Below, piece after piece: positions 34,733 to 61,773 of a DNA stretch of 64,000 nucleotides. Within the stretch, counting starts at the first letter, position 1, and each line of letters begins with the position of its first letter. Origin of the DNA: Norana najaformis (taxonomy: Eukaryota; Annelida; Clitellata; Crassiclitellata; Hormogastridae); assembly GCA_964023275.1 (NCBI GenBank), contig OZ029927.1, positions 8,913,720 to 8,977,719 on the forward strand. The letters run 5' to 3'. The notes under the pieces were generated by a model that saw only the letters and a program-made list of their open reading frames with translations, had not been told where the DNA came from and did not search any database. Position numbers and translations under genes: made by a program.

Positions 34733-35064
34733 TCAGTGGGTGAATGGTGGTGGGTCATGGAGGTCGACCGACTGCTGCAGGCGGCGGAGACGACGTCTTC
34801 CCGGAGGACTGCGTCTCCCGCGGTAGATGTAGAGGGGTCGTGGGTGCTGCTTCTGGACGCAGGTCGGCTTGTTTTCCGGACTCCACTGTCCGTCTACGCA
34901 CGTAGCAGCCGCTGGTCCGACCAGCTTGTACTCTTTGTCGCAGTGGTACTCGATCTGGACGTTGTGTACGATGCTCTTCGCGTACGGGCGATACTCGTAC
35001 TTACCGATCACGCCAACGAGCAGTACTTGGCCGTTTTCTATCGTTCCTGGGTACTTGCAGTGAA
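34733..35064 (-). CDS. Hasp: Hasp-like last exon: seventh sushi domain and basic tail
   Basis: Begins after a TTTACCAG acceptor. Sushi domain C445-C511 has a long insertion (LLVGVIGKYEYRPYAKSIVH) before the second cysteine, resembling the last CCP of the Hig/Hasp group from memory. The tail carries YRGRR (524-527) and RRRLRR (532-537), both fitting the furin rule R-x-K/R-R, and ends PPPFTH-TGA at 34735-34733. GC content is well above the neighbouring DNA. Confidence 0.9.
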
Positions 35065-38000
35065 CTGGTAAACGAAACAGTATACAGTTTTCTGTAGCTT
35101 CAACAACAGCTTGTAGTAACTCAAGGCGCATTTTGCTTTGCATTAATTTCATAACGAGATAGCTCAGATAGGTATATAGATATATAGACAGATGGGTAGG
35201 TAGGTAGGTAGGTAGACAGATAGATACATAGATGGATAGGTAGGTACGTACGTACGTAGGTAGGTAGATGATAGAAAGATAGACAGATGGACGGGCAAAC
35301 AGACAGATGGATAGATAGGTAGGTAGGTAGGTGGTTGGTAGGTAGGTAGGTAGGTAGGTAGGTAGGCTTATTTGAATACTTTACGTGGAGAACCTGTTTG
35401 GGCATTTGCGTGAGACAAGAGCCCATGCACAATAGGCAACAATTTATAGCCCCACAATGCAAATAGGCTTTAACAGTCAGAGACCTTCACACTGGGTTGA
35501 GTGTTTCTGGCGGTAGCACCTGCATTAAAGTATTGTATTGTGCTGTATCGTTCTATTGCAGTACAATCAAATAGGATCCAACAAGAAGAACCTTACAAGG
35601 CTCGACTACTGTCATTCAATAAAAATGACGCACCAATTGAACACCAGACGCACAAGTGAAGGCAGATACCGTAGTAGTTCAACCGCACGACCAACCATAA
35701 GGTACAGTTAAACTTTAATCGTAATCGTAATCGTAATCGTAATCTCGAGATTTCTACAGCGCTCAACGAAAGCTAAGTCGCGGGAACCAGCTTATTCACA
35801 GGCGCTCAGTCAAAACAAAATCGATAGGCAAAAGGGTCAAGATCCAGGAGTCAGGCACTCAGACAGTCGGACGGCTACGGTGGATGCTGTTTGAAATTGA
35901 AGCGAGAAAAGAGATAAGAGGAAGAGGAAGAATCAGGATAAGATTTCTGGTAAAGAAGTGTTTTCAGTCTTGAGTGAAAGACCTGCGCAGAAACTGAAGG
36001 AGGTGAAGTGTTGGTGAGTTCGTATGATTGACCAGACAACTGTCGCAATTCTGGCGGGAGTTTATTCCAAAGGGGTGGGGCAGCTATGGCTATCGAGCGA
36101 TTTCCAAATTTTAAGGATGAGGTGACGGGAGGGCGAAGAAGTGTTAGGACAGATGAGGAGCGGGTTGAACGGAGTGGTTGGATAGTAAATAATTGACGAA
36201 GATAGGAGGGTTGGGAGGATTGAAGTGTGTTGTAGGTGAGGGATAAGACCTTGTACTCTATTCGTTCTGGTATTTTAAGCCAGTGCAGTGATTTGAGAAC
36301 AGGGGTGATGTGATGGTGTTTGGGGGTTTTGGTGACAGCACGTGCGAGAGCATTCTGGATAGCTTGTAGGCGATGTATCTGGGTTGTGTAAAAAGGTGGC
36401 GTGATGGCCGAGTGGCTAGGGTTTCATATGTGCGGCCTAATCGTATTGTCGAACTACTATGATCCATAGTTTGACAATGCTAGCCTTTGTCTGTTCATAT
36501 CCCAATCGTACACAGGCAGACCTGATTATACCTATGACCTAAATTCCAAATACTGTACAGTATAACTCCGCTACATATTTATCTGTGCCAGTCCCAAGCC
36601 TGGATGAACGAGGAGGGTTGGTCGGTAGGGTGCAGATTCTACCGGCCGTAAAACAAAACAAAAAACGACAGAAGACGATTGAATTTTGATTCTTCCTGTT
36701 CCCCTTATCTCACTTTCCGGTTCAGTTCCAAGCACCATCCACCGTAGCCATCTGGCTGTCTACCTGCCTTACACTTGGATCTTGACCTGGAACCGAATCT
36801 GATGCTACCTGCCTATCGCTTTTTTGACTGAGTGCCGTGAATAAGCTGGTTCCCGCGACTTGGCTTTCACTGGGCCCTGTAGACATCTCCAGCTTACGAT
36901 TACGATGTCAGGGGCACAGGGTGAGCCTGTTGGCACAGGACAGGGAAAAGTGGAAATCTACATTGAAGCGTGCGATCGCCACCAACTGGAGATGAGCCCA
37001 TGGACTTAAGACTTCCTCTTATCCTTCTTTCCGCTCCAATCCCAAACCACCCACCGTAGCTGCCACGTTGTCTCTGCCTGACTCTTGGATCTTGACCTGG
37101 AACCGAACACTTTTGCCTATCGATTTGTTTTCACTGAGCGCCTGTGAATAAGCTGGTCCCCGTGACGTGGCTTTCGTTGGGCGCAGCAGAAATCTCGGAA
37201 CGACGATTACGAAAAGAAGCACATTATCTAACCTTCCTTGCACGAAGGCGTGTGTCCTGTCCAGTTGCCGTACTGACACGTGAGATAGGTGTCGCCAGCT
37301 AACTTGAACCCAGTGTTGCACTTGTACTTGGCTCGGTCTCCGTGATTCAGCGAATGGAACCGGACAATACCGTTGTTGATCTCAACTGGACGTTTCGTGC
37401 ATGGAGCTGCAGTGCATGCCGGGAAGAATGGGTGACCGGAAACAAAACAAGAAACGTCCGCCACTTGTGATTAGATATAGAAAAAAACGAAGTCCAGACC
37501 ATAGCAAATATGGTTGAAGTCGTGATCGTGATCGTAGTAATTATCATCATCATCGTCGTCGTCATCGTCATCATCATCATAATCATCATCATCGTCATCA
37601 CAGTCATCGTCATCGTCATTATCATCATCATCTTTGTAATAATCATGATCGTGAACATGTTGATTGCCTAATGATTGTCAGTAAGAGAAGATCATGATGA
37701 TATGATGATGATTATTTCTGTCATGATGACTCATGATAATTCGTTTTTCGTTTCGACTTTCAGTTTATCTGTTTTCACTTTCGTCTCAAACTACCGGATA
37801 TAGTTTTCATTTTGACTTTCTATTTGGCTCCAATTTGTTATGGCTAGTTTCGATTTGTAATTTTTCAATTTCCTCTTCCGGTGAAGCTACGATTTCCACT
37901 TCTGGTTTCGGTGTCTGTTTCAATGTGAAAAAAGTAAATATTCGACAATGAATGCTGCGTAAATCATTCAACTTTAGCAACCGCATACCTGGAAGACACA

Positions 38001-41000
38001 TCGGGAGTCGTGTCCAAGTACCATTGTAGCAATCCGGATATTCATCGTCGCTCACGAATCCACTGCTGCAAGTATAGCGGAGCCGACTGTTGTGGGTTAT
38101 AAAGTTGCCGACCTCATAGCCTTGGTCAAGGGTACCATTTGGTATCAATGGCAACTCGCATTTACCTACGAAGAAGCATATATGTATGCACCGGTATAGG
38201 TTATCAGTATGTTTTGGCCAAGGAGAACAATAGTCTTATCAATAGTCGTAATCGTAATCTCGAAATTTCTGAAGGGCTACTTAAAAGCTAAGCGCAGGGC
38301 ACTAGCTTATTCACGAGCGCTGCGTGAAGCCAGTGAGATTGTCCAAAGATGTCATGTCAAGAACCAATTGCGGTTGCCAGAAGACCAGAGAGAGAAGGGG
38401 AGAGGAGCCGTTAGGGAGGGTTGTGTTTAAGCTGAGAGAAATGGAAAGGCGGCATATTCGATGGATCAGGGTGGGATTTCATGAAAAGGTGATACATATA
38501 CCAACTAAGGCATATACGTACTGTTTCATTTGACTATGCTCAACATAGGCCTACATTTGCAAATACAACTAAATTTTAGTATGCCAAATTTAGGGGCTAC
38601 GGCAACCATTACGCCTTCTATGAATCGCCATTGATAACCTAATAAAGAGTAGGATTGTAATCAATTGATTACTGCTACCGTACAATTATGCTAGTTATTG
38701 TTGTGCGCTGGGTCTGCATGGCTCGACGAAGGTGCCTCGGTACGTAGTTTACCAAGTACTGGTACAGTTATATCATTTTCTTATTTCCATTTATTTATTT
38801 GTGCTGTCCATTAATTTCTTCCGGCAGAGAAAACCTGGTAGTTCGAAGCTTTTCACAAAATATAATGTTTTTACATAAAATACCCGAACTATTTGTGAAT
38901 TCACGATTAGTAAGCCTAAGCCTATACCAGGCAAATCGTTCGAGTGGCTTGAAGTGGAACCGAGTGACTGGATTTGATTAGTTTAGATGACGATGGATGA
39001 ACGTGGGGGCTTACTCCAGCACTTTGGAATCGGGTGTGACCATTCACCGGTCTCCTGACAAGTCGACGAGGGTGAAGTTCCTTCAAATGTCGTGCGACCA
39101 AAACACCTGGAAAATGTATCATGAACTCCAAAGCATCTGGGAAAAGTATTATAAACTCCAAACCATAACAGAATTGTACGTGTAGAGATCTTTTAATCAG
39201 ATGCGTTCTTTAAACAGGGGCTCAGTTTTTAGCAAGTTTAGCTGTCTACCTATCTATCCACTTTAGATACATATGTACGAACGTTTCTGAATACCTGCCA
39301 TCAACACCAACTCCATAACTAACTAGTAACAGAGAGATCAAGCGAAATATACACCCACTTACCTACAATTTCCACCTACCAACCCACCCACCCACCGACA
39401 CACGCACCCATCTACTCATCTACCATTCCCAGCTAGCAGGCATTCTAAAGCGCCATCTCTTGAACTATCTGTACAGGGGATGGCTCACCGGAAGACAATG
39501 ACGGATCCAAAGGTTGTCTTCTCACCGTCCAAGTATCCGTTGTAGAAAGGACCAGGTCGACCGCAATTCACCGCTAACGGTAAACAAAAAAGTACAACCT
39601 ATTAAGTTATATTCGGCAGTAGCAGTAGTGGTAGTAGTGGGAGTGGGAGTGGTATTAGTGGTAGTTCTTGTGGAGGCGGCAAATGGAGAATCGCGTATTA
39701 CTACAACCTCATAAACGGGAACCGCGATAACCGGGAAAGTCCCCGTTTCGGAATTCCATTAATTTCACCTTTCTGGCATGCCAAATGGGTACCTAAGGTT
39801 GAAACTATGCTTTTTTAACTGTCCCCGTTTTCAGCCAAAATTTTTCATTTCACTATAAACGGTTGTATTTTCTGATGCCAGACTGTTCCAAAACGGAGAA
39901 CTGAAATACCACGTTTCTCGAAATTCTTACGGTCACGTGATCGATGACATCACCCCATGCGATTGCAGAAGTAAGCGTGCAAGTAGGCAGGCATTGCATA
40001 TCCACTGATAGCATAAGTAAGGAGCTATCTAAAAGATAAATTATTGGCAAATATGTTTATAATTTTTTATAACCTGCACTTTTTCTCTTTCTTTTTTCTT
40101 TCACAAATTTAGAGCGTCTTACACTTAAGAAAACTAACTTTACGACAACAACTGAATGATCCATAGGCCTATCAGTTGCATTTTATGATGAGAATTGCAA
40201 ATTCGTCAACAGAAATATCAAAATAATCTAGAAAACAAAAATTAAACTTCTCTACACCACACGCATACGACTACAAAAAATGCGAAGTAGATTTCCGTTA
40301 CAAGAACTAATGTCTTCGTAACAAGCCTCGAAACTTCCTAGCTTTAATTGTAATCGTAAACTCGAGATTTCTACAGCGCCCAATGAAAGCTAAGTCGCGG
40401 GAACAAGCATGTTCACAGGCCCTCAGTCAAAGCAAAATCGATAGGCAGGAAGGGTTTATTTCCAGGTCGAGATCCAAGAGTCAGACTTCTACTGTTGGTG
40501 TGTTTGGAATGGGATCGGAAGATAAATCGCGACTGCGACTACCGCAACTGCGACGACTGCGAAGACTGCGACTACCCCGACTGCGAAGACTGCGACGACT
40601 GCGACTGCTAATACTGCGACTGCGGACTGCGACTGGAATGGAATCGGAAGGATGAACAAGGGGAAAAGAGGAATCATGACTGCGACTGCGACTACCACAA
40701 CTGCGACTGCGAAGACTGCGACTGCGAAGACTGCGACTGCGAAAACTGCGACGACTGCGACTGCCACTACCGCGACTGCGACTACCGCGATTGCGACGAC
40801 TATTGCGACTGCGACAACTGCGACTGCGACGAATACTGCGACTGCGACGACTACTGCGACTGTGACTACCGCGACTGCGAAGACTGCGACTGCGACGACT
40901 GCCACTACCGCGGCTGCGGCGACTGCGACTGCGACCACTACTGCGACTGTGACTACCGCGACTGTGACTACCGCGACTGCGACGACTGTGACTGTGACTA

Positions 41001-44000
41001 CCGCGACTGCGAAGATTGCGACTGCAACGACTTCGACTGCGAAAACCGACTACCGTGACAGAGACGACTACTGCGACTGTGACTGCGAAGACTGCGACTG
41101 CGAAGACTGCGACTGCGACTACCGCGACTGCGACGACTGCATTTATTGAGATGATGTTTCTGCACAACTCCATTAATAGAGATAATGTTTCTGCACAACT
41201 GTAACTGCAACTCGCACGTAGGTCCGTGCTGCGGGCCTGCGACCTAGCCGGAAGGCCGTTGCTCCGCACGAATCTGTGTATATGTGTACATTCAAAGTGA
41301 CCACAGTACTGTCTGAACTATGTGGTAGATATATATATATTTATATATATATATATAATGACTACAATTCTGTTTCTGAACTATGCGGTAGAAGGTCTCG
41401 AGTATGTGTATATATATATGCTTTGTATATAATAAGTATATATGTCACCACTTTTACGGTGGACAGTTATGCTGTATTCATAGACGTTAACTTCCTCTAG
41501 CGAATGCCAGTGAAAAACCGATTTTGATATTTCGATTAGTGACAGCGTGCAAAGGTTGTATTTCCGTTAGTAAATCTCGCTTTTTGGTCCTTTTCAATAA
41601 ATCGCGTATCGATGAGGGCACCATGCAAATGTGGATACGCACATTATTCAATCTGTCTGTCAGGCGTTATTTATAGGCCCAGCTCTGGATTTAGAAACCG
41701 TGGAGGCGAGGTGGGTGAGTGGTAAGGCGTCGGTCATTTGTCCCTTGGTACCTAGTTCAATTCCTGGTATATCACTCTAATACCTATATACATAGATACG
41801 TGCATACAGTCATACATACTGCTGTCAGAAGAACTTCGGGTTTGACGTTATAAAATGATTGTGGAGAGTTACCCTTAGATTTAAGACGAATGCAAAATGC
41901 TCTTAAACTCAGTTCAAAAATTCTTGTCAGTGATAATCATCCTACTTTAGGAGCTCTTAAAGATCATTGGATGAACTTGTATCGTACTAAAAATACCAAA
42001 GCGGCTAATACTTTCCTGATTCACAGTAGAGTATTACACTCATCCAACCGATGTTTATATATATTATGCCCTACAAAAACCCTAGGCCTGCTGGCTGCAT
42101 TTATAACACTCTATGAGGTAACTACGGTCGATGACTTCAATAACACCAGCCACTCCTTCACTCTGCGTTGTATCCATTAAGAACTGCGTCGTAAGCGCCG
42201 CGTCTTATTAAAGCGGTTATTTATTTATTTATGTAGATGTAAATTTTATTTCGCCACAAAAATCGGGCAGCGCACAAACCTACTGAACACAAATACGAAT
42301 ACAAAGAAAACTTTGACTACAAACTAACTAATAGAATACCGTCCATAAACATTAGCACAGAAGTCAGGAATATAGAAATTTTGCAAAACATTATAATAAT
42401 CACAAAGCATCCCTTTCTGTGGTTGCGCAAACAATTGTTTGAAAGAATACTGTTTCACATTAATATCAGCCTGAAGCGACAAACAGCCAGCATACATGCA
42501 AATGTCTCTCGGACAATGAATGTTATTTACTTTGAAAAGCCTCCAAAATATTCTGTTCCATGTATTTGTCAACCTTGCATACTCACTTTTGATGAGTGTA
42601 ACACATTCACATGCATAGATAAGTATTGGTTTACAATGTGCCTCGAATAAACTTAAAGGACCATTTCATCCATGCTTCCTTTAGCTTTAGAAAGAATATT
42701 ATTAACAGCCTTATAAAATTTGCAAATTGTTTCAATAAAACTTAGTTTAAACTGTTTTCCGACAGTCAAATAGACTCTTAAGTATTTTTTCTTTATCAAC
42801 ATACGGTGAGCTTAAACCAGAAACAATCAAACATTCACACAGCTGTTCATAAGCACTACCCATCCTGAGCAACATTTATTTTGCTACATTGAACTTTATA
42901 TCCAAATAGTATGCTTCTAATTCGCAAGTGATAATCATTTTATTATTTATTTATTTATGATTATTTATTGGTATTTTATCAATTTATTATTTATTTATTT
43001 ATTATTATTTATTGTTATTTATTGTTTATTTATTTCTTATTTAAATATTTCTTTATTACTCGATTTATTTGTGCATTTATTTTAATATTTTGTTACAAAG
43101 GTGAAATTCACGATGACTTACGAGATATCTAAAAATATATAACATCAGATCAACAGCTATTTTATTATATGTATGTATATATATATAATCAGCCTCGTCA
43201 TCATCATCATTTTCGTCATCACAATCATCATCACCATCATCAATTATTCTAAGTTAGGCGCATAGATGATTTCCGCCCTAGGGTAGCATCCCTTTATATT
43301 TATAAATTCCTGAAAAAAGCCTCAGTAGATCGCGATCTCCATAACATAAGCATGCCAAATATGTTAAGATATTGATTTTATCATCAGAAATAAAAAGATT
43401 TTAAATACCCCGATTTCCGTGTTCAGGGACTAGGTCCCCTGTTTGTGGGATATACAGGTATAGTAGTAATAGTAGCGGTAACAGTAGCGGTTGCGGTGGC
43501 GGTGATGGTAGCGGGAGAAGCAACAGTAGCAGCAGTAACAGCAGTAGCAATAACGAATTCCAGAAAATGCTCCTTTTACTATTTTTTTAATTTGGAAGGT
43601 TCATTTTTTCCTGGGGTAAAATATAAATAAATTAATAAATAACAATATTTAAAATGCACAGAAAAAGATGTTATAAGCAGTTTTGTACGACAGTAAATCG
43701 CTGTATATTTCTGTAATGGAAAGTAATTGTTAGCCTGCTCTGTTGCAGCCTTGATTGTGATTCCAGAATGCAGTTGTTAGAAGTCCTTGTGCACCCCAAT
43801 AGCGGCGCTATAGAAGTTCTAGATTAGCTCAGATTTGATAACCGTACTCACTGACGCACACGGAGTCATTTCCGCTCCACCTGCCGTCCTGCTGGCACTT
43901 GCGCACAGGTGATCCTTCCAGCTGGAACCCTCGCAGACAGGTAAACGTTGTTATGGCGCCGTACGTGGAATCGGTGCCATGGATCTGTCCGTTGTTTGGT

Positions 44001-47000
44001 GCCTGCAGCCGCGGGCATCTCACAGCTACAGCAGACAACAAATGAGCACTTCAAAATCATGTCTTCGAAATCAGCGCTTTTCTTAGGTGCCCAAAAGGAG
44101 CAATATAAATGTCCCCATACATACTTGTTTGCTGATAACTAAACATACCGTAACACACTCAGTCGGGCAGCATCTAATCTAATCTAATCTAAATTCTAAT
44201 CTAATCTAAATTCTAATCTAATCTCGTCAGATCCAATCTAGTCAGATGCAATCTAGTCTAGTCTAGTTTAATATGATCTATTGAATCGAATCTATACTTA
44301 AAATTAGTCCTTATTCCCCAGACTGACCATCATTCTGCAAGGTCGTCTGATTGCCTTTCTCTGGTCATATTTAGGACTGTTCTCGATTAAGGGGCTTTTT
44401 CGTTTGCTGGACCTAAAGTTTGGAACTCTCTCCCTGTGTCTGTTCTTTTTGCTCAGTCGCTTCTGTCATTTCATTCTCAATTTAAAACTTGCCTTTTTCA
44501 AACTGCTTATCCGCCGTAGGCTGCCTTTTTGTCTTGTGGACTGACCTTCTGGATATTAACCTGATTTCGACTTGGCTTTGGTGCTCCATCGCTTGATGCC
44601 TGTGCATTAGACACGATCCAAGAGTGAGGCGGCTACGGTGGATGGTGTTCAGAATTGGAGTGATAAGATAGACAAGAAGAGGTGGAATCAGAATAAGATT
44701 TGTGGAAGAGGAGTGTTTTCAGTTTTGAATGAAAGAACTGCGCAGAGATTGCAAGGGGAGAAGTGTTGGTGAGTTTGTACGATGGGCCATTTAATTGTCG
44801 TAATTCTGGTGTGAGTTTATGCAAAAGGAGTGGGGCAGCTATGGCTATTGAGCGATTCCCAAATGTTAAGGATGAGGTGACTGGAGGGCGGAGAAGTGTT
44901 AGGGCAGAAGAGGAGCGAGTTGAACGGACCGGATGAATTGTAAATCACTGACGAAGATAGGAGGGTTTGGGGGATTAATTATGTTGTAGGTAAGCGATAG
45001 AACTATAGCGGTGCCTGGAACATTTAACTCTGAGTTCAGTGATACGGCGCACGCTGCTTAAACATCGCAATCGCAGCTATGTTAATTACAACTTGTTTTT
45101 CTTCAACTAAAACATATAGAAACAAAAAAAAAGTTGATTTTCTTATTTCAATTTCTACCAAAAAGCTAATTTTGGACTCTCATAAGCTTTAATTGTTTTT
45201 TAAAGCTCAAAAATTTACTTCTTGAACTCTTCGTTGGATACGTAATATACTCATAGAAAATGATTGACTTACGGCGACACATTGGTAGTGTCCCAGACCA
45301 CTGTCCGTCGGCGGCACAGACTCTGTACGGCCTCCCAACGAGTTCATACCCCTCGACGCAAGTATATTTCACCCGGTTCGGGTAGACGAACACATTTCCT
45401 TCTCGCTGCCCGTTCGGGGTGTCTCCCGGATGGCCGCAACGACGAGCTGTAATGGAAACAATCGGGAAATAGACAGTTAAGATTATTTCATCATTTTGTT
45501 TGTGGATTTACCACATAAAATCGCTTTTATTCAGAATGCTATGAAAATCTTCGTTTCTAAGTCTAGTTAGTCTCGACATGGAATCAGAAGTAAGTAAGTT
45601 AATAATGCATTCGTTAACACCCCATGTGTGTCCATCGGTTCAGCGCGGAATCGTAGGCATGGATGACTTACAGCGGTCAGACAATAAGAGCAAGACGGTG
45701 CAAATAGGTCTTAAGCCGCTTTACAGAAATTTATGGAGGGGCTCTGTCATTTCGTATGCGACTAATGTAGAGAGGTAGTAAATAAGAATATCAAATGGGA
45801 CAAACGTCTTTAGTGTTGATTTCGTCGATTCGTGATCATCATTATCGTTCTTCATCAACGTCGTTACATAAGAGCCTAATGGCCCTTATAGACCCTATCG
45901 GCAAATCGTAATCGTAATCTCGAGATTTCTACAGCGCTCAACGAAAGCTAAGTCGCGGGAACCAGCTTATTCACAGGCGCTTAGTCAAAACAAAATCGAC
46001 AGGCAAAAGGGTTCGGTTCCAGGTCATATTTCATTCATATTTCTCCAAACCTCGCTTCATTTGGCCACTTGCATAGTGTTGCGGTAACTTAATGCAATAG
46101 GCCTACACTGAAGTGCAATGCACAATCCAATCAGTGCAGTTTACAACAATGTCATTAACTGAAATGTATTGCAATGTAGGTCAATTGAATGTACTGCAAT
46201 AGATTGTAATGTGTGCCCTGTTCTGTTTGTTTCCCTGACCTATCCGATTTCGACGGGGTTTCTTCAACGGATTATAATTTTTTACTACGATTTCACTTGA
46301 AGCGACAATCGATTGATGTCTTTTGCATTATGAAAACGGCGCTATATAATTCATTCTATTAAAATTGTGTAGGGCCTACTGCAGTTAACTGAATGCACTG
46401 CATTGAGAAATGCTACGCAATCAGGAAAATATAATCTAAAGGCATATATGCGAATATACGGTCCGTGCACCTGGATCTTAAATGGTGTGGCGCCCATTCA
46501 AAGGGGCAGCGATGGTTAATGATCTCGTCCGATTAATTTATTGAAAAATGAGCAGGGTCGAGGCCATACGGTCGCTTTAGAAACACATGCACATTTGCAT
46601 TTACATTTTACATTTAGCCTACATATGTGTGTGCGTATGTACATTTACGTTTTGCATGTACATATGTGTGCATATAGGCATCTTTAATACAGTACACTTA
46701 GCTGAAGGTAAAATGCGAAAAGGTAAAACGTCAAAAGGTAAAAAGGTAAAGATTTCTCACGTGAACACGTCATCCTGGGTCCCACCCATCGTCCCTCTCC
46801 GACGCACATGGCTCGGAAGAATCCGTCGAGGCTGTAGCCGGCCGTGCACGTGTAGGTGAGCTGGGTGCCGAGAGGAAAGACCTTCTGGCCAGTGGGTCCA
46901 TCGTGCACTGCATGGTCGACGACCGGAGGATCTCGACACTTTCCTACACCACGTCCGTCGAAAGACAACTACATTCAGTTCTGTTTGTTTATATAGCGCA

Positions 47001-48085
47001 TATATTGCATATGGATGCAATTTATTTTGTCAAAATAATCCTTTTAAGCTGGCAAAAATTAAGTAAATGTAGCTTTTAATTATAAATTTTTATATAGAAA
47101 AGAAATTATTCAGAGGTGCTCTCTACCCTAGCCTAATTGTAATCGTAATCTCGAGATTTCTACAGCGCCCAACAAAAGCTAAGTCGCGGGAACCAGCTTA
47201 TTCACAGGAGCTCAGTCAAAAGTCGATAGGCAAGAAGGGTTCGGTTCCAGATCGAAATCCAAGAGTCAGACAGGCAATCAGACGGCTGCGGTGGGTGGTG
47301 TTTGGAATTGGATAAACGGTGCTAAATATCAGAAAGTTCATAAGTTAGGAAGCAGTGCTCAGGTAACTAAAAGAGTCAACACTGGAGGTCTCCCGCATAC
47401 ATATAGAGCCAAAGCAACGAATTTAATTAAGAGTTTACATATGACATCGTGTTTAGAGTTCCTGGACCGCGTTGCCTCAACGACGAGGAAAGACGACAGG
47501 CGATGAGGTCCGTCATCCGGTTTCCTCACCATTTTCCACAAATTTAGTTCATTAGGGCGCGATTTGTGATTAGTCACAGTGGGTTTAATTTAAGGTATGA
47601 CCCTTCTTGTCTATCCATTTTGTTTTGACTGAGCGCCTGTGAATAAGTTGGTTTCCGCGACTTAGCTTTAGTTGGGCGCTGTAGAAATCTTGAGCTTACG
47701 ATTACGAAAATAGTTCCATATGAAATGGTAAACTACAGCACATACAGATACAACACAGCACTAAACAAGTCAATATAACACAGTACAACAGAAGAAGTAC
47801 AATACAATGATCCTACAGTACAATACAATGCAGTAGCGTACCTTCGTATTTGTACGTTGAGGAGATGCTGTGGTCCTGGTGGCAAGTGGGAGCGTCTCCG
47901 TTCCAGTATCCGTCGCCCTGGCAGATCCGCTCGGCCAGTCCCACGAGCCGGTATCCGTCGTCGCAGTGGTAACGGACTTTGGCACCAAAAGTGTTGTATG
48001 GAATGATCTCGAACTTCCCGTTTAATAACGTCTTCAGACTCTCGCACTTAAGGGCTTCGAAAACAGTCGAATATTTCAACATAAT

Positions 48086-48146: not shown

Positions 48147-50242
48147 GTTTGCCTTATATGCAAAATCTTCCGCCAGATCTTGACGATTTCTAGCCGTCCC
48201 AGAATTTTTCATTCTCCGGAGAATTTTTTAAATCCTGAGGGATCATGTATACCTCGGCTAAAAATAATAATAATTAGTAACTTCTAATGCGCCGGTGTCT
48301 TATGCACAAGGCCTCAACCGATAGCGCACCAAAGCCAAGCCGCAATCAGGTCAGGATCGAGAAGGTCAGTCCACAAGACAGAGAGGCAGCCTACGGCGGA
48401 TAAGCAATTTGAAAAGGCAAGTTTTAAACTAAGAATTAAATGACAGAAGCGACTGAGCAGAAAGAACAGACACAGGGAAAGAGTTCCACAATTTAGGTCC
48501 AGCAAACGAAAAAGCCCCTTCAATGAGAACAGTTCTAGTCCTAAGTATGAACAGAGAAAGGCATTCAGATGACCTTGCAGATGTAATGCAATGCGATGAA
48601 TCAAATCCAGTCTAGTCTGGAAACATCTGTAGTGGCGTTATCATACAACAAAAGGCAGAAATCGATGGATATCTCAGCAAAAATCGCTTATAAGTAAATC
48701 GTATTGCAAAAGCGTGATCCACAGGACAGAATAGTGGAGATAATGAAATGCAATTAATGTAAATTAACGCACATTTTTATTTATGTTTATTGTTGTAATG
48801 TAAGCCTTTCTTAGGTTCAATCTTTGAATCTCTCAAATAGCCATACATCAGCGCTGATTTGTTTATTCGTTCGTTCTTTCATTCGTTCATTCTTACAATC
48901 GCACATACTTTATTCTTTTATTCTTTCATTCATTATTTACTCATTCATCTTTCTTAGTTCATTCGTTCATTTAACCACTGATTCGTTAGTTCATTCATTC
49001 GTTCGTTGATTCGTTCATTTATTCATTCGTTCACTCATTTCTTCAGTCATTCATTCATTCACTGGGTGGGTTGATAGTTCAGTGAAGAGTGAGGTTGCTC
49101 ACATGGTTTGACGCAGCTTTTTCCGCAAACGTCGTCACAGAGGCATCGTCTGTTTCGGCCTCGGCATTCGAGGTCCGAGCGACACTTCTTGAGACACTTC
49201 CGGTTTCTCACGAGGTCCGGCTTCCGGGGACATGTCGGATGGTCAATAAAAGGACGATTGGCGTCACCTGCAACAACAAAAATGACATTGCTAACTGCAT
49301 ATGAGCAACACAGCGTGACAGACCATTCGTGACACGACGCCTGTCTCCATGAACTCTGGTCACGCTGGTTCTCTGCCTGACTCTTGGATCTTGACCTGGA
49401 ACCGAACACTCTTGCCTATCGATTCTGTTTTGACTGAGCGCCTGTGAATAAGCTGGTCCCCGTAATGTGGCTTTCGTTGGGCGTTGTAGAAATCTGGGGA
49501 TTACGATTACGGTTACGACTATTGCACATAGCATGAAGCTGCCAAGCTATACACAGAAAGGTCTTTATTTCGTTTTCTCTTCTGTCAGACTGTCCGATTG
49601 TGCGTTCGTCAGTAAGTAAATAAGTCATTCATTATTTGTCTGTACCTTTGTATGTATGCATACGTGCGAGATCTGTATGTGTATGTATGTATGTACGCTT
49701 GTATGCATTATGCATGCATGTCCATCAGAACCTCTCTGTTTCCATCGCTGCTACAGTTCCTTATGTCTCCTACCTCCGATGCCTTCTTTCCTTCTAGCAG
49801 TGCCTCAATGTATCTCTTCCTGCCTTACTCGTTTACTTCCTATCTCCCTTTATTCATGCCTTCCTTCCTTCCTTCCTTCCTTCCTTCCTTCCTTCCTTCC
49901 TTCCTTCCTTCCTTCCTTCCTTCCGTCCACCTCCCATTCTTCTGGCCTCTGTTGTTCCTCTGCGTTGGACTCTTCTGGTTTTAATCCATCCGTAAATCTA
50001 TTGATAAATGGATTTACCGGCGGCTGAGACAAAGAGAACCGAACCAAAGACGCCGCCTGAACGACCGACGAACCGAGATAACACCTGACACTTCCCGTCG
50101 ACCTATGACTGACTGACTGACTGACTGACAGACTGGCTGGCTGTCTTACTGGCTGACTCGCCTGACTGGCAGGCTGGCTAGCTGAAGTTGAACGTTGTAA
50201 AATACTGGCTGACTGACTGACTGACTGACTGACTGACTGACT

Positions 50243-50285
<43 letters not shown>

Positions 50286-53200: not shown

Positions 53201-56200
53201 CGTCGAAGTGGTTTATCTGTTCCCTCCAAACCATCGGTACACCAAATTTCAGGCAGCTTCTCTTTCCAATTGTCCAGTGGTGCAATTGTTCAATACAAGT
53301 TTTGCATACTGTATGAGGAGCCCATTGCTTATCTTGATCTCCAAGTTTGACACCAAAATAACCTACATATGCTCTTTTTACAAACTCAGAAATCGGTTTC
53401 CTGTTTGCTATTAGTGTGTATTCCCCACAAATGTAGCAGAATATGTCTGGATGGTTAATGCAGCTCCGTCTGGAAGTAGCCATAACCTTAAGGATGTTCG
53501 CATCTGAGGAATTAAATGACTAACCTAAAAAATAGTAAGAACATGTAGTTATTTAATGCTCACATTCACAGATTGTTCTTGCGACCAACTCTTAATATGC
53601 CCTAAGACGACTGCGGCTGCTCTAGCTTTCAGGAGGCGGTTTATATAGGCTATAAATGCTGACTTCAGCATAATCTATTTACACATTTCGAAACCATGAA
53701 ACGCTGTATAAGCACAAATAAATTCTAAATGAGGCCATGAATTTAGTGCTGAGTAAGCTGTAGGCTACGGAATAGTTATTTCGTTGAATCAGCAATATCT
53801 CAGCACGCGGCAAGATATGCTGATTTTACATTATAAGGATGTAGGCATTATATGAATCAGCAAGAATTATAATTAGCCATAAATAAAGCTTATTATGACA
53901 TTTTAGTTTTGCCAAATACATCGTTTAAAGAGTGGACTGGGTTTTCTTTACAAAATCGACGATATCTCAGAAACTAGACCTGATGCAACACGCATATCTA
54001 TTAATTATAGGCCTAGGTTACACTTTATAATAATATAAAAAGTATAAAACATACATAAACATAAAACATAGACATAAAAGTATAAAACGTGGGCCACGGT
54101 AGCATATCGGATGAAGCAATCGGCTACTTAAGCCCGAGAGTACGGGTTCGAGCCTCCTCCGAGACGGTAACTGTGTAGGGACCGTGAGCAAGTCCTTCAC
54201 TCACAATGCTCGGCGCCATCGACTTAGGCTGAGTCATTAAATAGTGGCGCCTAATAAAAGCAGAAATAATAATACCCGGCTACATTGCAGTATGTTACAA
54301 CCAGTGGCCTACCTCACCGGGGGGTTCTGGAATCCTAATCCCCCAACCCGGAGGTTCAAGACCATCACCCTTCGTGTAGATCCGTTGAGATTTTTTAGGT
54401 GTAGGCTACCCCAGTCTATCGGTGGCTCTACTTTGGATACGAGCACCATACAATAAAGAGCATTTTCGAGGCCGAAATCAGTCATGCGACATGAAGTCAA
54501 AAGATGTAAAACAATCCTTCATAATGCGCCAAGCGTGTAATGGAAAATATCATTCGCGTTAACAATGCTATGCTGTATGACGGATTAAACTTTTCTGAGT
54601 CGAAAATAAAGCATAGAGCTGCAGCGAAGTCGATGTGACTGCGGGCTAATTCCAAGAACTACGGCGGTCATAATTCATTCATAGCGTCGGTAGATTGCAC
54701 AACAGAATAGTCAAATCCCTGCAACATCACATCTGTTTATCACGTCACGCGCGTTCGGGTCTTGTATACGTGGTCTGCACAGGCGTCGCCTTAAGCCTAA
54801 CCCTGCAATTTATCTTTGCACCAAATGACACTTTTGTGCAACGATTTTACATACATGCATGCATGCACTCATGTATACTCAGATACATATATACATACAT
54901 ACATACATGCATAGTTGCATTCATACGCTTATGCATATATGCGTGCATACATTTATACTTATATAAATGCATGCATGCATGCTTACATATTTGCATGCAT
55001 ATATTCTCATTCATGAATGCATACATACCTACATATAGATTAAAAAATGGTAAAGTAGAGTAAGACAATGGAAGGCAATGTAAGATAGGACAAGATAAGG
55101 TTAGATTAGGAAAGGTGGGAAAGAGCAATGCTAAGTAAAGTCAGGTAAAGCAAGGCAAGGAAAGTAAGATGAAATAAGGCTAGGAAAAGTAAGCTAAGGT
55201 GAAGAAAAGTAAGGTAAAGTATAAGGCGAGGTAAGGTAATGTAATCGTTCACTTATTACACACCTCTTCGTTGTCCTCAGGACAGCGGATCTTCGGCTGA
55301 AGCGCTTAAACAACATCGACATCCAACAACACCAATAAATAGGCTGATTTGCACACGTGACCGAGCGGTAGGCTGATAGTTCCATAAATGGACTAAAGGA
55401 AGTGTTTGCGCGAGAGTACTGTCCAGGCCAATAAATGGATTGGGAGAAGTGCCTGATACATATGGCGCTTCCCATTTATGGACATGGCCACTCTTTCGAG
55501 CTGCTTGAGTAATGTTTGAATTGGGGAAGCGTTTACGTCAGACTTTGTCCATAAATAGAATGGAAAAGCACTTGAACGAGGAAAACGCGGAGTAAGGTCT
55601 ATAAATAAGTTAGGTAAATGTTTAGAATGAGATTGATCTATTATTGGATACAGATAAATGTTTAAGTAATTAAATATAGTGTAGATTTATAAATACAACT
55701 ATAGAAGCGTTGAAATCGAAGTGTGTACATTAAAGAATTTTCAGATAAGTGTTTGATCAAGGGCAAGATCTAAAAATAAAATCTGATAAATGTTTGAATA
55801 TTGAAATAGAGTATAGATTTATGATTAGAATTGATTAGAAGAACATTTTAACTCAAAATATGTCTTTAAAATAACTAAGAGAATTGTTTGAATGAGGGAT
55901 GCAGTGTAGATCTCCAAGTAAAACAAAAATATTGCATGAACTCGTGAACAAGTCAACGATAACGCGTATAGGCCTTGAGACAGTAAAAGGCTACAAAGCG
56001 TGATGGTTTTTAAGTTGTGGGGTAGATATGGAGAGGAAAAAAAGGTAGACTTAATACAGCAGTAAAAAAATCAGTCGATTTTTAACTAAGGCTCACTTAA
56101 AGCGACCATCAACCAATGCCTTGTGCATTATGATAACGGCACTATAAAAGTCTTTGTATTATATCCCGCCTCTGATTCGTATTTCTGTGTGGCTTTGAAC

Positions 56201-56344: not shown

Positions 56345-56384
<40 letters not shown>

Positions 56385-59300: not shown

Positions 59301-61773
59301 ATTATCCATAAATATATCGTTAGACCCTCGTAACTATTAATGAATAATGTCTTAAACGAACAAAAGAAACACGTGGTAATGGTGGTGGGAGTATAGTACA
59401 ACCAATACCACTAGTAATACACTGCTAATACTGTTAGTACTACTACTAGTACAGTAATAGTAGCAGCAGTAGTAGCATTAGCTAGTAGCAATATTCGTTC
59501 CAAACACTTTCAGTTTTTCTAGGCCTTTTTTAAAATCCCGAGGGATAAATTTTACCTCGGGTTAAAATTAATTGTTCTATCAACAGTCCTACTACAACCG
59601 CACTTAGTCATTAAGACTTCTAACAAAATACTTGTACTTGCATGCTGTGCTTTAAAGAAATATGAATTTCCTGTACTGGTCGATAGCACCACAACTGTAA
59701 ATACTGTAGTTTTTAAGAAGCTTCTAGATTGCGTTGCTTTTAAGAAACTGCGTGCCATGACACGACGGTTCGTCTAAACAGAACGTTTCGACAAGGGCAG
59801 CCAGCGAAAGAGCGAGTGAATAACATTTGCGGAAGTTTATTTCCGCTGCCTAGAATGACGCGGGGTATGATTTACACACCGAAATGGCGGCCGCCTTCGA
59901 TGACACGTAGGAGCAGAGGCGACTGGAGAGAAATTAAACAAACGACGGCGTGACATTTGAGACCGGGTGGTTGGGCCCGATAATGTGCCTCGTTGGCAGC
60001 CGAATAATCTTTCCGATATCCGAGCAGGACTTCGCCTGCCCGCCCTCATCGATCCATCACCATTTGCCATGAATATGGTTCTCGGATTCGACGCCAGCGG
60101 CAGAAAAGGGGTGGAAGACCGCAGGGTGTCGTATTCGCAATAATGGCTCCGATCGAACGGGGCGTGGGTGCGCAGCCTTTTTTGCTTAACCCCCTTAATG
60201 AGCTTTGAGATTTTGGGTCGTAAAGATTAACACGATTTTTGCGAGGTTCATAAACGAAACAGACGCACTTTAGGCAATGATTGAAACGTTTTGAGATTGG
60301 ACTTTGAAGGTTAAGGGTCTAAGTGCCGACTGGGACTACTCCCACTTCTATCTAACTCCGCGTATAAAAATCGATTACTTCATAATTATAGTTATAATAA
60401 TAACAATAATAATAATAATAATAACAACAACAACAATAATAATCATAATAATGATGTTAAAAAATGTATAATTATACAGATATTACTTTATTTCACAGAA
60501 TCTCTCGAAGTTGCTGAAGTATAGCTATCTTCAAGATAAAAACGCGCCACAAAAGTTAGATTCTTTCGACTGAAAACTCTTATTAAACGCTTATCGGGCT
60601 TGTGATGGAACATTTCGTATTTTCAGTGAAAATTGTCGCAGAGGGAGGGATGGTCCGATGCTCGGTTAGGATGGTCTAATGTTAACTTTGCTATTTAGCT
60701 ATATCCGTTACAGCATGCTGACAAGAACATTAGTTATTATATTTACAACGACGGCAACAATATGGCTACCATGAAAGCTACAACAGTGATGATGACCAGT
60801 AGGGTTCTACAGATGAGGCCAAATGGGTCACGGCCTTCCATCTGAGCCGTTGTCCCAGCCCCCAAAATATTAAAACACTCCTTGTCATTTTGAAATAGCT
60901 CACTGCGAGAAAAGAAAAGATCGCTAAATCTAAGAAACTATAAAAATTCAGCAAAAATTCTGTTTTAAGGAAAAAATCTTCAAAATCTGGCGATGACTTT
61001 TAAAAGGTTATCAATCTCAATGACTAAAATCCTAATGACTAAAAATAACTCATGAAAAATTTAGCAAACAAAATGGTCGCAAGAGTCCTGATGACTAACA
61101 GAGGGTTGTTATTAAATTTGTTTCAAGTTTTAAATACGGTATTACTTAAATTGAAGTTATCTACGGTCTTGATTGCGGTCTTGGTCCCTGTTTCTTTGTA
61201 ACGTTTTGGATCAGTCACTGATCTTGACCATGAACAGAAGTTTATTGTGGACACTGTCAGAAAATCCTTCCCTTGACCCCATATCGGCAAATCTAGTGCC
61301 GCCAATAATGATGTTGATGATGACAATTACGATGCTAATGACAATGATGATGCTGAGGATGATAATTATGATGACGATGACATGAAGGCGCCCACCGTAA
61401 CGCCCCTAGCACTTCTGTTTGTTGCAAGTCCCGCAGAATCTCGTTGCAAGTTGCAAAAAGACGAAGACAACCGGAGTCAACCGAACCATATCGAAATGAA
61501 CCGCATAAAACGGGATCCGACCAGAACCGGGTCCAACCGAACCAGATCGAATCGAACTGAGCAGTGATGATGATGACAGTTTTTGATGATGATAATGATG
61601 ATAACGATAAATATGATGATGACGACAATGATGATGTTGATGGTGACAGTTATGATTACTCTGATGAGAGCAATATGAGAGCAGAAGAAGAATTGAAAAC
61701 ACTGACTGATCTCGAGCTGAAGCGCAGAAAAGACCAACAGGCAACCAAAGACAACAGCTCTTGTGTCCATCAT
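34733..61773 (-). CDS. Hasp: Secreted WAP plus seven-sushi protein, Hasp/LEV-9-like
   Basis: Exons in transcript order: 61773-61707 (inferred), 49267-49103, 48054-47842, 46943-46761, 45446-45273, 44025-43852, 38165-37989, 37406-37233, 35064-34733. Every intron is GT-AG and phase 1, so domains are cassette-like. The joined frame is 1659 nt, 552 residues plus TGA. Domains: signal peptide 1-22, WAP-like 35-77 with eight cysteines, sushi/CCP domains starting at cysteines 81, 151, 213, 271, 328, 387 and 445, each with four cysteines and a W near the third loop, then a basic tail 512-552. One WAP plus seven CCPs is the reported layout of Drosophila Hasp; C. elegans LEV-9 has one WAP and eight CCPs. 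Both are secreted scaffolds that hold acetylcholine receptors or matrix at synapses. A similar role here is inference; a generic sushi protein is the alternative. Confidence 0.8.
35190..35370. repeat. (TAGG)n/(TAGA)n microsatellite
   Basis: Tetranucleotide tract 130 bp 5' of the last sushi exon in the intron. Confidence 0.9.
35720..36380 (-). mobile_element. LINE-A, best-preserved 3' half
   Basis: Read on the minus strand: ORF2 C-terminus with L-H-W-L-K-I-P-E-R-I-E-Y-K-V-L, L-T-Y-N-T, S-Y-L-R and P-L-W-N-K-L-P-P-E-L-R, then K-T-L-L-Y-Q-K-S-Y-P. The 3' UTR follows: CTTGGATCTTGACCTGG-like, CCTATCGATTTTGTTTTGAC, GCGCCTGTGAATAAGCTGG, GCGCTGTAGAAATCTCGAG. It ends in about four GATTAC units (plus strand 35717-35745). 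This copy defines the family and shows that the many short fragments are its 3' UTR. CR1/L2-like by the LHWLPxxxRxxxK motif. Confidence 0.8.
36390..36665 (+). mobile_element. SINE with tRNA-like head and RTE-like tail
   Basis: GTGATGGCCGAGTGGCTAGG is a good A-box of leucine/serine-tRNA type. The 3' part reads GTGCCAGTCCCAAGCCTGGA and TCTACCGGCCGTAAAAC, the tail also seen at 14990 and 59025. Confidence 0.5.
36680..36910 (+). mobile_element. LINE-A 3' UTR copy
   Basis: CTTGGATCTTGACCTGGAAC, then GTGAATAAGCTGGTTCCCGC and TTACGATTACGATG. Plus strand, 5'-truncated. Confidence 0.7.
37013..37213 (+). mobile_element. LINE-A 3' UTR copy beside a sushi exon
   Basis: Full 3' UTR from the CCACCCACCGTAGC region to GACGATTACGAA. 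The 3' end is about 20 bp from the splice donor of the sixth sushi exon. Confidence 0.75.
37233..37406 (-). CDS. Hasp: Hasp-like exon 8: sixth sushi domain
   Basis: Residues 385-443. Cysteines C387, YKC, LTC and SC440 with the W of NWTGHTP and an N-linked sequon (NWT). Acceptor CACTGCAG at 37407; donor GAAG/GTTAGA. Phase 1 at both ends. Confidence 0.9.
37525..37635. repeat. (CAT)n microsatellite
   Basis: TCATCATCGTCATCATCATC tract in the intron between the fifth and sixth sushi exons. It gives a methionine/threonine-rich minus frame that is not a gene. Confidence 0.9.
37989..38165 (-). CDS. Hasp: Hasp-like exon 7: fifth sushi domain
   Basis: Residues 326-385. KCELPLIPNGTL opens the domain, then LRYTC, YPDC and LPMC with W in NGTWTRLP. 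Sequons NGT occur twice. Acceptor TTCGTAG; donor CCAG/GTATGC; phase 1-1. Confidence 0.9.
38240..38350 (-). mobile_element. LINE-A 3' UTR scrap
   Basis: AATCGTAATCTCGAAATTTC and AAAGCTAAGCGCAGGG match the LINE-A terminus on the minus strand. About 75 bp 5' of the fifth sushi exon. Confidence 0.55.
38350..40340. other. Intronic sequence, nothing recognised
   Basis: Part of the 5.7-kb intron between the fourth and fifth sushi exons. Only a GTAGTG-rich patch (39605-39690) stands out. No further sushi exon was found on either strand. Confidence 0.5.
40345..40500 (-). mobile_element. LINE-A 3' UTR copy
   Basis: TTTCTACAGCGCCCAATGAA, CTAAGTCGCGGGAAC and AAAATCGATAGGCAGGAAGG. Its upstream (5') side is lost where the GACTGC array begins. 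Confidence 0.7.
40535..41145. repeat. (GACTGC)n hexanucleotide array
   Basis: About 600 bases of GACTGCGACTACCGCGACTG and variants. Five or more overlapping open frames arise from it (alanine/threonine, alanine/valine and arginine/serine). No start context, splice sites or domain supports any of them. Confidence 0.95.
41690..41790 (+). mobile_element. tRNA-like SINE head
   Basis: An A-box-like GGTGGGTGAGTGGTAAGGCG and a B-box-like AGTTCAATTCCTGG at near-tRNA spacing. No acceptor stem pairing seen. Confidence 0.35.
42930..43080. repeat. (TTTA)n microsatellite
   Basis: TTATTTATTTATTATTTATT with variants, 770 bp from the fourth sushi exon. Confidence 0.85.
43852..44025 (-). CDS. Hasp: Hasp-like exon 6: fourth sushi domain
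   Basis: Residues 268-326. RCPRLQAPNNGQI, then FTC, RKC and VC324 with the W of GRWSGNDS. Acceptor GCTGTAG; donor GTCA/GTGAGT; phase 1-1. Confidence 0.92.
44175..44225. repeat. (CTAAT)n pentanucleotide repeat
   Basis: TCTAATCTAATCTAAATTC units directly upstream of the LINE-C copy. Confidence 0.8.
44310..44612 (+). mobile_element. LINE-C 3' end
   Basis: A-F-S-F-A-G-P-K-V-W-N-S-L-P-V-S-V, then Q-F-K-T-C-L-F-Q-T-A-Y-P-P and a stop. The 3' UTR follows, to CCATCGCTTGATGCCTGTGC. A close inverted copy is at 48295-48610. Confidence 0.75.
44620..45005 (-). mobile_element. LINE-A ORF2 end, broken
   Basis: The minus strand reads P-E-L-R-Q-L-N-G-P-S-Y, L-T-N-T-S-P and F-H-S-K-L-K-T-L-L-F-H-K-S-Y. Lacks the (GATTAC)n tail. 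It abuts LINE-C at 44612. Confidence 0.7.
45273..45446 (-). CDS. Hasp: Hasp-like exon 5: third sushi domain
   Basis: Residues 210-268. RRCGHPGDTPNGQREG, then VKYTC, YRVC and LPMC with the W of GQWSGTLP. Acceptor CATTACAG; donor CGCC/GTAAGT; phase 1-1. Confidence 0.93.
45585..45735 (+). repeat. Dispersed repeat E, copy 2
   Basis: Matches 19900-20045 (GTTAACACCCCATGTGTGTC; GGAATCGTAGGC; GCGGTCAGACAA). Confidence 0.5.
45903..46025 (-). mobile_element. LINE-A 3' UTR copy
   Basis: AATCGTAATCTCGAGATTTC through AGGGTTCGGTTCCAGGTC; short, close to the consensus. Confidence 0.75.
46205..46350 (+). mobile_element. LINE-C 3' UTR tail
   Basis: GAAGCGACAATCGATTGATG and CATTATGAAAACGGCGCTAT; ORF2 part missing. 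Confidence 0.55.
46473..46580 (-). repeat. Dispersed repeat G, inverted copy
   Basis: The reverse strand matches 26655-26770 (GGTGTGGCGCCCATTC; GAGCAGGGTCGAGGCCATAC). Confidence 0.55.
46761..46943 (-). CDS. Hasp: Hasp-like exon 4: second sushi domain
   Basis: Residues 149-210. KCRDPPVVDHAVHDG, then LTYTC, RAMC and MTC208 with the W of GRWVGPRM. Acceptor GTGTAG; donor TCAC/GTGAGA; phase 1-1. Confidence 0.93.
47135..47310 (-). mobile_element. LINE-A 3' UTR copy
   Basis: TCGTAATCTCGAGATTTCTA, AAGTCGCGGGAACC, through the ACGGCTGCGGTGGGTGGTGT end. Confidence 0.75.
47600..47707 (+). mobile_element. LINE-A 3' terminus
   Basis: TTTTGTTTTGACTGAGCGCC, GCGCTGTAGAAATCTTGAGC and TTACGATTACGAA. Confidence 0.7.
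47842..48054 (-). CDS. Hasp: Hasp-like exon 3: first sushi domain
   Basis: Residues 78-149. LKCESLKTLLNGKFE, then VRYHC, ERIC and PTC with the W of GYWNGDAP, and a 12-residue linker QDHSISSTYKYE. The acceptor TTTTCGAAG is weak in pyrimidines but gives the only frame that joins the WAP exon. Donor GAAG/GTACGC; phase 1-1. Confidence 0.92.
48085..48147. repeat. (AAT)n microsatellite
   Basis: Uninterrupted AAT run 30 bp upstream of the first sushi exon acceptor, in the place of the branch point region. Reads as polytyrosine on the minus strand. Confidence 0.9.
48295..48610 (-). mobile_element. LINE-C 3' end, inverted copy
   Basis: The reverse strand is about 90 percent like 44310-44612 by eye, including GGGGCTTTTTCGTTTGCTGG and GTCTTGTGGACTGACCTTCT. 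Confidence 0.75.
48845..49065. repeat. (ATTC)n microsatellite
   Basis: TTCATTCGTTCATTC variants; ends 38 bp before the WAP exon donor. Confidence 0.85.
49103..49267 (-). CDS. Hasp: Hasp-like exon 2: WAP-like domain
   Basis: Residues 23-78. Eight cysteines at 35, 47, 51, 57, 64, 66, 70 and 74, in the order of a WAP four-disulfide core: CP...KC...C.SDLEC...RCLC...CGKSCVKP. The usual KCC pair is spread as C-L-C, a variant seen in invertebrate sushi proteins. Acceptor TTGTTGCAG; donor CCAT/GTGAGC; phase 1-1. Its phase requires an upstream exon ending with one base of the codon. Confidence 0.88.
49370..49525 (+). mobile_element. LINE-A 3' UTR copy
   Basis: CTTGGATCTTGACCTGGAAC through GGGGATTACGATTACGGTTACGAC-type tail; 100 bp from the WAP exon. 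Confidence 0.75.
49858..49924. repeat. (CTTC)n microsatellite
   Basis: Uninterrupted CCTT repeat of about 65 bases. It gives SFLP and EGRK shadow frames. Confidence 0.95.
50105..50462. repeat. (GACT)n tetranucleotide array
   Basis: About 60 near-perfect GACT units from 50206 to 50460, with a degenerate lead from 50105. It reads as S-V-S-Q repeats on the minus strand. No gene. Confidence 0.97.
51180..51346 (+). mobile_element. LINE-B-like 3' tail
   Basis: GAAGAGGCGCTACATAAATG followed by GCGATTACGATTACGAC. ORF2 end decayed. Confidence 0.5.
51560..53982 (-). mobile_element. Transposase-like element with short inverted repeats
   Basis: CAGGTCTAGTTTTCGAGATAT at 51560-51580 recurs inverted at 53962-53982 with two changes in 21. 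The pair brackets the 568-codon reading frame 51780-53483. The arms do not extend further, so they may be subterminal rather than the true ends. No target duplication was found. A 14-base hairpin (AATCAGCAATATCT with its complement) lies at 53788-53829 on the 5' side. Confidence 0.45.
51780..53483 (-). pseudogene. ZAD plus RNase-H-like transposase gene, one in-frame stop
   Basis: One continuous minus-strand frame of 568 codons. The N-terminal part (53483-52914) begins MATSRRSC and has a ZAD-like zinc site C16-x2-C19...C60-x2-C63, then a further DDCYFC motif and an acidic serine-rich linker. A TGA at 52916-52914 interrupts it between LSDLIRD and NLSKESSELLASRLKEKN; a leucine codon is expected there. 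The second part runs 377 residues with FIDSSKRSLKCVLLNNGN, WVICVDLKMVNFLL and EEQGERFHQDIKTMENRYQG. Their spaced D, D and E suggest an RNase-H-fold transposase (inference). I recall a multi-copy uncharacterised family like this in cnidarians and arthropods. It lies in intron 1 of the Hasp-like gene on the same strand. The otherwise intact frame implies a young copy. Confidence 0.7.
54091..54276 (+). mobile_element. tRNA-derived SINE copy
   Basis: B-box GGTTCGAGCC at 54145, then CGGTAACTGTGTAGGGACCG and AGCAAGTCCTTCAC. Tail CTAATAAAAGCAGAAATAAT. The B-box matches the consensus better than the 30372 copy. Confidence 0.75.
54845..55030. repeat. (ATGC)n/(ATAC)n microsatellite
   Basis: ATACATACATGCATGCAT variants in Hasp-like intron 1. 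Confidence 0.85.
55035..55245. repeat. Degenerate AAGGTAAAG purine-rich repeat
   Basis: GTAAGATAGGACAAGATAAG and similar, with a 5-6 base period; no pyrimidine-rich interruption. Confidence 0.7.
55375..55930. repeat. Old ~45-50-bp tandem array
   Basis: Diverged units contain CCATAAATRGA followed by an AAGTGTTTGAATGAGG-like half, near 55377, 55424, 55470, 55548, 55597 and onward. Identity falls toward 55930. Confidence 0.45.
56070..56155 (+). mobile_element. LINE-C 3' UTR tail
   Basis: AAGCGACCATCAACCAATGC and TGCATTATGATAACGGCACT. Confidence 0.55.
56222..56386. repeat. (AAT)n microsatellites
   Basis: Short AAT run at 56222 and a longer pure one at 56346-56386. Confidence 0.85.
56630..56830 (+). 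mobile_element. LINE-B-like 3' end
   Basis: L-S-M-W-N-P-S-V remnant, and later CAGGTACTTAAAAGGCGCTATA, the common LINE-B tail form. Confidence 0.45.
57230..57868. repeat. 116-bp near-perfect inverted repeat with 407-bp spacer
   Basis: Arm 57230-57345 and arm 57753-57868 are reverse complements with about two differences (both contain CAACATATGCTGTTGTTCAG). The spacer ends with an 84-bp piece of the neighbouring LINE (57651-57734) that also occurs at 58043-58126. Confidence 0.9.
57953..58261 (-). mobile_element. LINE ORF2 C-terminal fragment
   Basis: An open minus-strand frame reads HWLPIEQRIHFKICLTVHRV, then P-S-Y-L-R-S-M-L, K-L-W-D-S-L and S-K-L-R-T-H-L-F-Q. This is the CR1/Jockey-type end, L-H-W-L-P to the W-x-S-L motif. 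It is intact over 100 codons, so fairly young, but truncated. Confidence 0.8.
59025..59085 (+). mobile_element. RTE-like tail scrap
   Basis: CAATGGCCCTGTAGCCACAAGATGTCGTTAAA-type sequence, as at 15065. Confidence 0.4.
59835..60330. promoter_or_regulatory. GC-rich block, candidate regulatory element
   Basis: About 500 bases of CpG-bearing, non-repetitive sequence inside AT-rich intron. Visible words include GGCGGCCGCC, GGGTGGTTGGGCCCGATAAT, TCATCGATCCATCACCATTT and TGCCATGAATATG. No frame is supported by splice sites. It lies 1.4-1.9 kb 3' of the inferred first exon of the Hasp-like gene, so an intronic enhancer is the likeliest reading. Confidence 0.35.
61310..61670. repeat. (GAT)n microsatellites
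   Basis: TGATGATGACAATTACGATG at 61310-61385 and GATGATGATGACAG at 61562-61670, separated by the inverted-repeat arm at 61379-61560. Confidence 0.85.
61379..61560. repeat. Inverted-repeat arm, left
   Basis: The reverse complement of 62817-62994 at roughly 80 percent by eye: GCCCACCGTAACGCCC, GACGAAGACAACCGGA, GGGATCCGA, ACCGGGTCCAACCGA, CCAGATCGAATCGAA. Confidence 0.75.
61707..61773 (-). CDS. Hasp: Hasp-like inferred exon 1: signal peptide
   Basis: ATG at 61773 (second ATG follows at once). It reads MMDTRAVVFGCLLVFSALQL then EI and one base before GTCAGT. The hydrophobic core with a preceding arginine is a good signal peptide. Its phase-1 end is what the WAP exon needs, and the join gives LQLEI-S-DANRPF. 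The 12.4-kb intron is long, and other hydrophobic frames exist near 58.8 kb, so this is inference. CRE, NRF1 and ETS motifs 0.5-0.9 kb upstream support a promoter here. Confidence 0.5.

Follow-up and report, generated by a model that had tools for sequence, protein, structure and literature searches.

The minus-strand gene at 34733-61773 of the window, the whole stretch of 64,000 nucleotides of Norana najaformis DNA that was analyzed, probably encodes, in intact form, a LEV-9/Hasp-type extracellular-matrix protein that is secreted and scaffolds cholinergic synapses. This explanation was based on the order and number of the domains, a splice structure that keeps the frame open, purifying selection, the occurrence of two paralogs that share the layout, and an R-G-K/R-R sequence in all three gene copies. 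According to the proposed mechanism, the protein would be secreted, and its tail would be trimmed by a proprotein convertase after the eighth sushi (CCP) domain, CCP8. The CCP array would then bind partners in the synaptic cleft, namely, a CUB-type protein such as LEV-10, or Hig, together with nicotinic acetylcholine receptors, and the receptors would thereby stay clustered. The WAP domain would be accessory, as reported for LEV-9.

Gene structure and domain composition

Base-level reading and assembly of the exons gave one uninterrupted reading frame of 611 codons and a stop, distributed over 11 exons whose GT-AG borders were picked by hand to preserve the frame (Table 1). Ten of the exons were well supported, and the remaining one was a plausible signal-peptide exon. 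The protein comprised, in order, a candidate signal peptide, the WAP domain, CCP1 to CCP8, and a basic tail ending at 34733. Nine of the 10 introns were in phase 1, while the other, 382 bases long and located inside CCP5, was in phase 2.

All reading frames of at least 25 amino acids in the window were searched with six of its sushi domains as seeds. Apart from these six, which match by construction, the search returned a seventh sushi domain (E 6e-5), together with weak half-domains at two places (39488-39598 and 38986-39192), and all other matches in such frames of the whole window scored 7.2 bits or less. The half-domains correspond to CCP5. In the original prediction, eight exons, all of phase 1-1, were described as encoding 552 residues with exactly seven sushi domains. 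As the present model without CCP5 has 552 residues, CCP5 was evidently skipped in that reading; the sushi count is corrected to eight and the exon count to 11, including the signal-peptide exon and with one phase-2 intron. The minus-strand GT-AG exons encoding a WAP domain, sushi domains, and a basic tail were confirmed, with 28 bits for Pfam WAP and E = 5.4e-70 for Pfam Sushi.

Table 1. Exons of the gene at 34733-61773, listed from the 5' end, with the supporting evidence.
Feature	Position	Strand	Evidence and remarks
Candidate exon 1: start ATG and signal peptide (MMDTRAVVFGCLLVFSALQLEI)	61707..61773	-	Phase-1 donor A/GTCAGT; putative
WAP exon, eight cysteines, CLC at the usual CC position	49103..49267	-	Pfam WAP 28 bits, cut-off 20.8; related exon in both paralogs
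CCP1 exon	47842..48054	-	Base-level reading, Pfam Sushi
CCP2 exon	46761..46943	-	Base-level reading, Pfam Sushi
CCP3 exon	45273..45446	-	Base-level reading, Pfam Sushi
CCP4 exon	43852..44025	-	Base-level reading, Pfam Sushi
CCP5 first half, exon ends in phase 2	39489..39573	-	Half-domain of the seed search; counterpart in paralogs
CCP5 second half, exon starts in phase 2 and ends in phase 1	39015..39106	-	Joined CCP5 Sushi 30.1 bits, cut-off 20.7; paralogs
CCP6 exon, divergent	37989..38165	-	Sushi 21.6 bits, cut-off 20.7; paralogs
CCP7 exon	37233..37406	-	Base-level reading, Pfam Sushi
Last exon: CCP8 with long insert, basic tail, R-G-R-R site, stop TGA	34733..35064	-	Sushi 32.6 bits; paralogs

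Pfam Sushi recognized eight stretches in the 611-residue protein, and among the CCPs that were scored individually (CCP5, CCP6, and CCP8), CCP6 was the weakest. WAP domains usually have CC where CLC is found here. Pfam WAP (PF00095) fell to 21.3 bits when the whole protein was scored instead of the exon alone. No Ig-like domain was matched by Pfam in the protein at E values up to 1. In the case of CCP8, the best of five predicted models, of middling confidence (pLDDT 70.3; range 39.6 to 70.3), resembled CCP modules; its best Foldseek match had an E value of 1.5e-3, so that no match reached 1e-3, and the top three included a zinc-finger entry that was not a CCP. For the predicted WAP model, which was poor (pLDDT 64.8), Foldseek gave two matches, with E values of 4.5 and 9.8, neither of which was a WAP. 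Similarly, the WAP profile gave six matches among PDB sequences (E 0.12 to 0.87), four of which were trypsin-inhibitor peptides and none a WAP protein. Relatives were also sought in viral contigs and prokaryote genome contigs, from which own-genome records were possibly left out; 36 and 23 pattern matches were obtained, respectively, and none was confirmed. Such an absence says little about an animal gene.

The candidate signal-peptide exon lies 12.4 kb upstream and has a hydrophobic core and a weak donor. With a looser donor filter, 25 ATG/donor pairs were obtained, many of which share one ATG; when these were ranked by hydrophobic core, the candidate came second, after a long frame at 49534. 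With a stricter filter, no candidate was obtained for the present gene (copy A) or for copy C, and one was obtained for copy B. The signal peptide of copy A matched only itself in the whole-protein search of the genome. From its sequence, the protein is probably secreted.

Other reading frames were observed in the introns. The long first intron holds, on the minus strand at 51783-53519, adjoining frames of 377 and 201 amino acids, which look transposon-derived; in one of them, a zf-AD match remained below threshold (19.1 bits, cut-off 28). The intron before the last exon holds a minus-strand frame of 182 amino acids at 35878-36423 with no Pfam match, which resembles the end of a LINE reverse transcriptase.

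Paralogs and purifying selection

The genome comprises 608 Mb in 17 contigs, in which the window occupies C15:8913720-8977719. Searching it with the whole protein returned 54 matches, and besides copy A, two sets of exon matches occurred in the same order, namely, copy B at C15:25.093-25.099M and copy C at C1:2.790-2.805M. By base-level reading, each encodes a WAP and eight CCPs, and they span about 6 and 15 kb, respectively. Moreover, in each of the three copies, a phase-2 intron interrupts CCP5 immediately ahead of its second cysteine. The identity to copy A was 54% for copy B and likewise 54% for copy C, the copy C row lacking the first half of CCP5 (CCP5a), which was located after the alignment. 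The 3' end of copy C is unsettled. The 5' end of the copy B WAP exon, which was placed by hand, does not coincide with an AG acceptor, and the first WAP cysteine was not found in the frame read there (L019:753-857).

Copies A and B differed over 525 codons at 182 first, 150 second, and 298 third positions. The corresponding dN and dS were 0.40 and 2.22 (dN/dS about 0.18), and those of copies B and C were 0.52 and 2.06 (dN/dS about 0.25), dS values near 2 being close to saturation and dS between copies A and C not being computable. The third-position excess was found in the second half of CCP5 (CCP5b) in all three comparisons and in CCP5a between copies A and B, the sole comparison made for that half. 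The three copies are old and under constraint (purifying selection). Chance or decayed exons were ruled out by the Pfam Sushi E value, the third-position excess, and the low dN/dS, with the two paralogs likewise speaking against chance, and in terms of its sequence, the gene at 34733-61773 is a real, intact-looking animal gene.

The individual CCPs were also compared, using the 24 CCPs of the three copies and 44 CCP stretches from three loci on C3 and one on C13; for CCP5 of copy C, the first residue was taken from the unspliced frame. The CCP at the same position was the best match outside the own gene for 23 of the 24. The exception was CCP4 of copy C, which best matched a CCP of another gene; the margins of CCP4 were small throughout, and CCP4 of copy B favored its counterpart narrowly (62.8 vs 61.2 bits). 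As the same position was matched so consistently, the array looks like an old fixed unit.

C-terminal tail

After CCP8, copies A and C both read R-G-R-R-S, while copy B reads R-G-K-R and then stops at once. R-G-K/R-R is the sequence form cut by furin-like convertases, and R-X-K/R-R sites occur in many secreted proteins. It is conceivable, although rather doubtful, that the three copies are ancient LEV-9-type scaffolds in a lophotrochozoan lineage, in which the tails of copies A and C would be removed after R-G-R-R and copy B is made as if ready-cut, so that receptor clustering could be divided between triggered and constitutive scaffolds, respectively. According to the accessible parts of two reviews (one being PMC4220116), receptor clustering by LEV-9 depends on cleavage at its C terminus and does not require its WAP. 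The likeness of the tails is that of a putative site after CCP8 here to C-terminal cleavage as reported there.

Other features of the window and genome

The window gave no Rfam match at the gathering score and no tRNA gene. Its plus strand carries, at 15418-27941, the reading frames of an apparently unrelated gene, including one of 436 amino acids at 22806-24113 with no Pfam match and one at 15418-15792 in which an EST1_DNA_bind match stayed below threshold (16.5 bits, cut-off 22); as a guess, this gene is perhaps SMG7-like. Elsewhere in the genome, a single open frame of 2562 amino acids at C3:41.258-41.268M (L001-L005) consists of tandem CCPs.

A homeodomain query of the genome gave 102 matches, with 150 of 198 candidates scored, and groups were found at C3 3.4-3.8M and 7.7-8.0M, C4 29.7-29.9M, and C1 62.8-62.9M. 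Fourteen of the loci were read, four of them on the wrong strand, where no homeodomain was seen. Two nearly identical homeodomains at C3:3.62M and C3:7.88M (L036, L037) are presumably Lox2/Lox4-like, and the Hox genes look duplicated. As a guess, several Hox groups would suit an annelid whose Hox genes are duplicated, for example an earthworm. One Hox gene carries the KLTGP motif of Lox5. In the source text available, this motif is reported from Lophotrochozoa and Platyhelminthes and is described as not observed in ecdysozoans or deuterostomes. Accordingly, the motif marks the animal as a lophotrochozoan or platyhelminth, outside flies and nematodes, and the earlier claim of a gene outside these groups held.

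A search of the genome for COX1 returned four matches, all of which contain stop codons when translated with the standard code. With the invertebrate mitochondrial code, the matches, including L023 and L026 (C15:410569-414226), were broken pieces and were therefore taken as decayed nuclear copies of mitochondrial DNA.

Family assignment and alternative explanations

Assignment to the LEV-9/Hasp type is supported, and the putative orthology rests on architecture. In the review text available, LEV-9 of Caenorhabditis elegans has one WAP and eight CCPs, which agrees with the count given in the original prediction and fits the corrected eight CCPs here. Hasp of Drosophila, in contrast, is credited in that text with a WAP and up to seventeen CCPs, and the seven-CCP Hasp architecture to which the gene had been likened did not hold, whereas the proposed kinship with the LEV-9/Hasp type was supported by architecture. 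LEV-9-like with eight CCPs is therefore a more fitting description of the gene than seven-CCP Hasp. LEV-9 itself is described in the accessible sources as secreted and dependent on C-terminal processing, both of which are predicted for the Norana gene, and it is likened to that gene by layout; the differences are that three gene copies are present here and that copy B stops right at R-G-K-R. Hasp is described there as a processed matrix protein of cholinergic synapses and, as here, places its WAP before the CCPs. Hikaru genki (Hig) of Drosophila is another CCP protein located in cholinergic synaptic clefts, but it has an Ig-like domain and five CCPs, with no WAP mentioned in the portion of the review consulted, whereas here a WAP and eight CCPs occur without an Ig match. 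In abalone, a gene named 'Protein lev-9' (HDH_G06399) differs between ovary and testis, as stated in the accessible part of PMC11989308. This lophotrochozoan gene was compared by name, and by that name the family is known outside flies and worms; a gene of this kind there is not obviously new. No other lophotrochozoan mention of LEV-9 was met among the papers listed.

A role other than receptor clustering is possible, though distinctly less probable than a synaptic one: the gene would belong to the LEV-9/Hasp family by descent and serve in the extracellular matrix generally, in reproduction, or in immunity. Three diverged copies leave room for new roles, and the abalone gene, which in the same source is one of the top-ranked genes that distinguish ovary from testis, counts mildly against a purely synaptic role. 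The words WAP and CCP also appear in some mollusk shell-protein papers, as far as their searched text goes, although CCP may have a different meaning there. However, all three copies kept the order of their domains, the split in CCP5, and the site at the C terminus, which suggests a conserved shared mechanism.

It is improbable that the protein is an unrelated complement-like sushi protein that gained its WAP by exon shuffling and resembles LEV-9 by convergence. The WAP exon and all CCP units are in phase 1-1 and therefore easily shuffled, and the copy A protein is matched at up to 120 bits by a CCP-rich gene on C3. In addition, complement regulators were the best matches in the PDB sequence search, and no LEV-9 structure was among the best 60 of 75 matches. 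The vertebrate regulators concerned (factor H, CR1, CR2, and CD55), which were among the best sequence and fold matches, share tandem CCPs with the present protein, but a WAP is present here, and nothing here points to complement; these regulators are not known to carry a WAP domain. Convergence also accords poorly with the presence of exactly one WAP and eight CCPs, with the positional matches of 23 of the 24 CCPs across the three copies, and with the C-terminal site common to them. Even less credible, to the point of being negligible, is an origin of the exons from two or more separate genes or from a decayed copy. The transposon-like frames in the 12.4-kb first intron could be taken in its favor, but all exons are open, in phase, and ordered as in the two paralogs. 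The LEV-9/Hasp-type synaptic scaffold is retained as the preferred reading.

The finding is of moderate interest, mainly owing to the three copies and their differing tails. The presence of three copies in one animal offers a natural test of which domains matter, and two simple markers, the intron that interrupts CCP5 and the site that follows CCP8, may be looked for in other phyla. If the orthology is confirmed, the extracellular clustering of acetylcholine receptors by WAP-CCP proteins that are activated at the C terminus would be at least as old as the common ancestor of protostomes.
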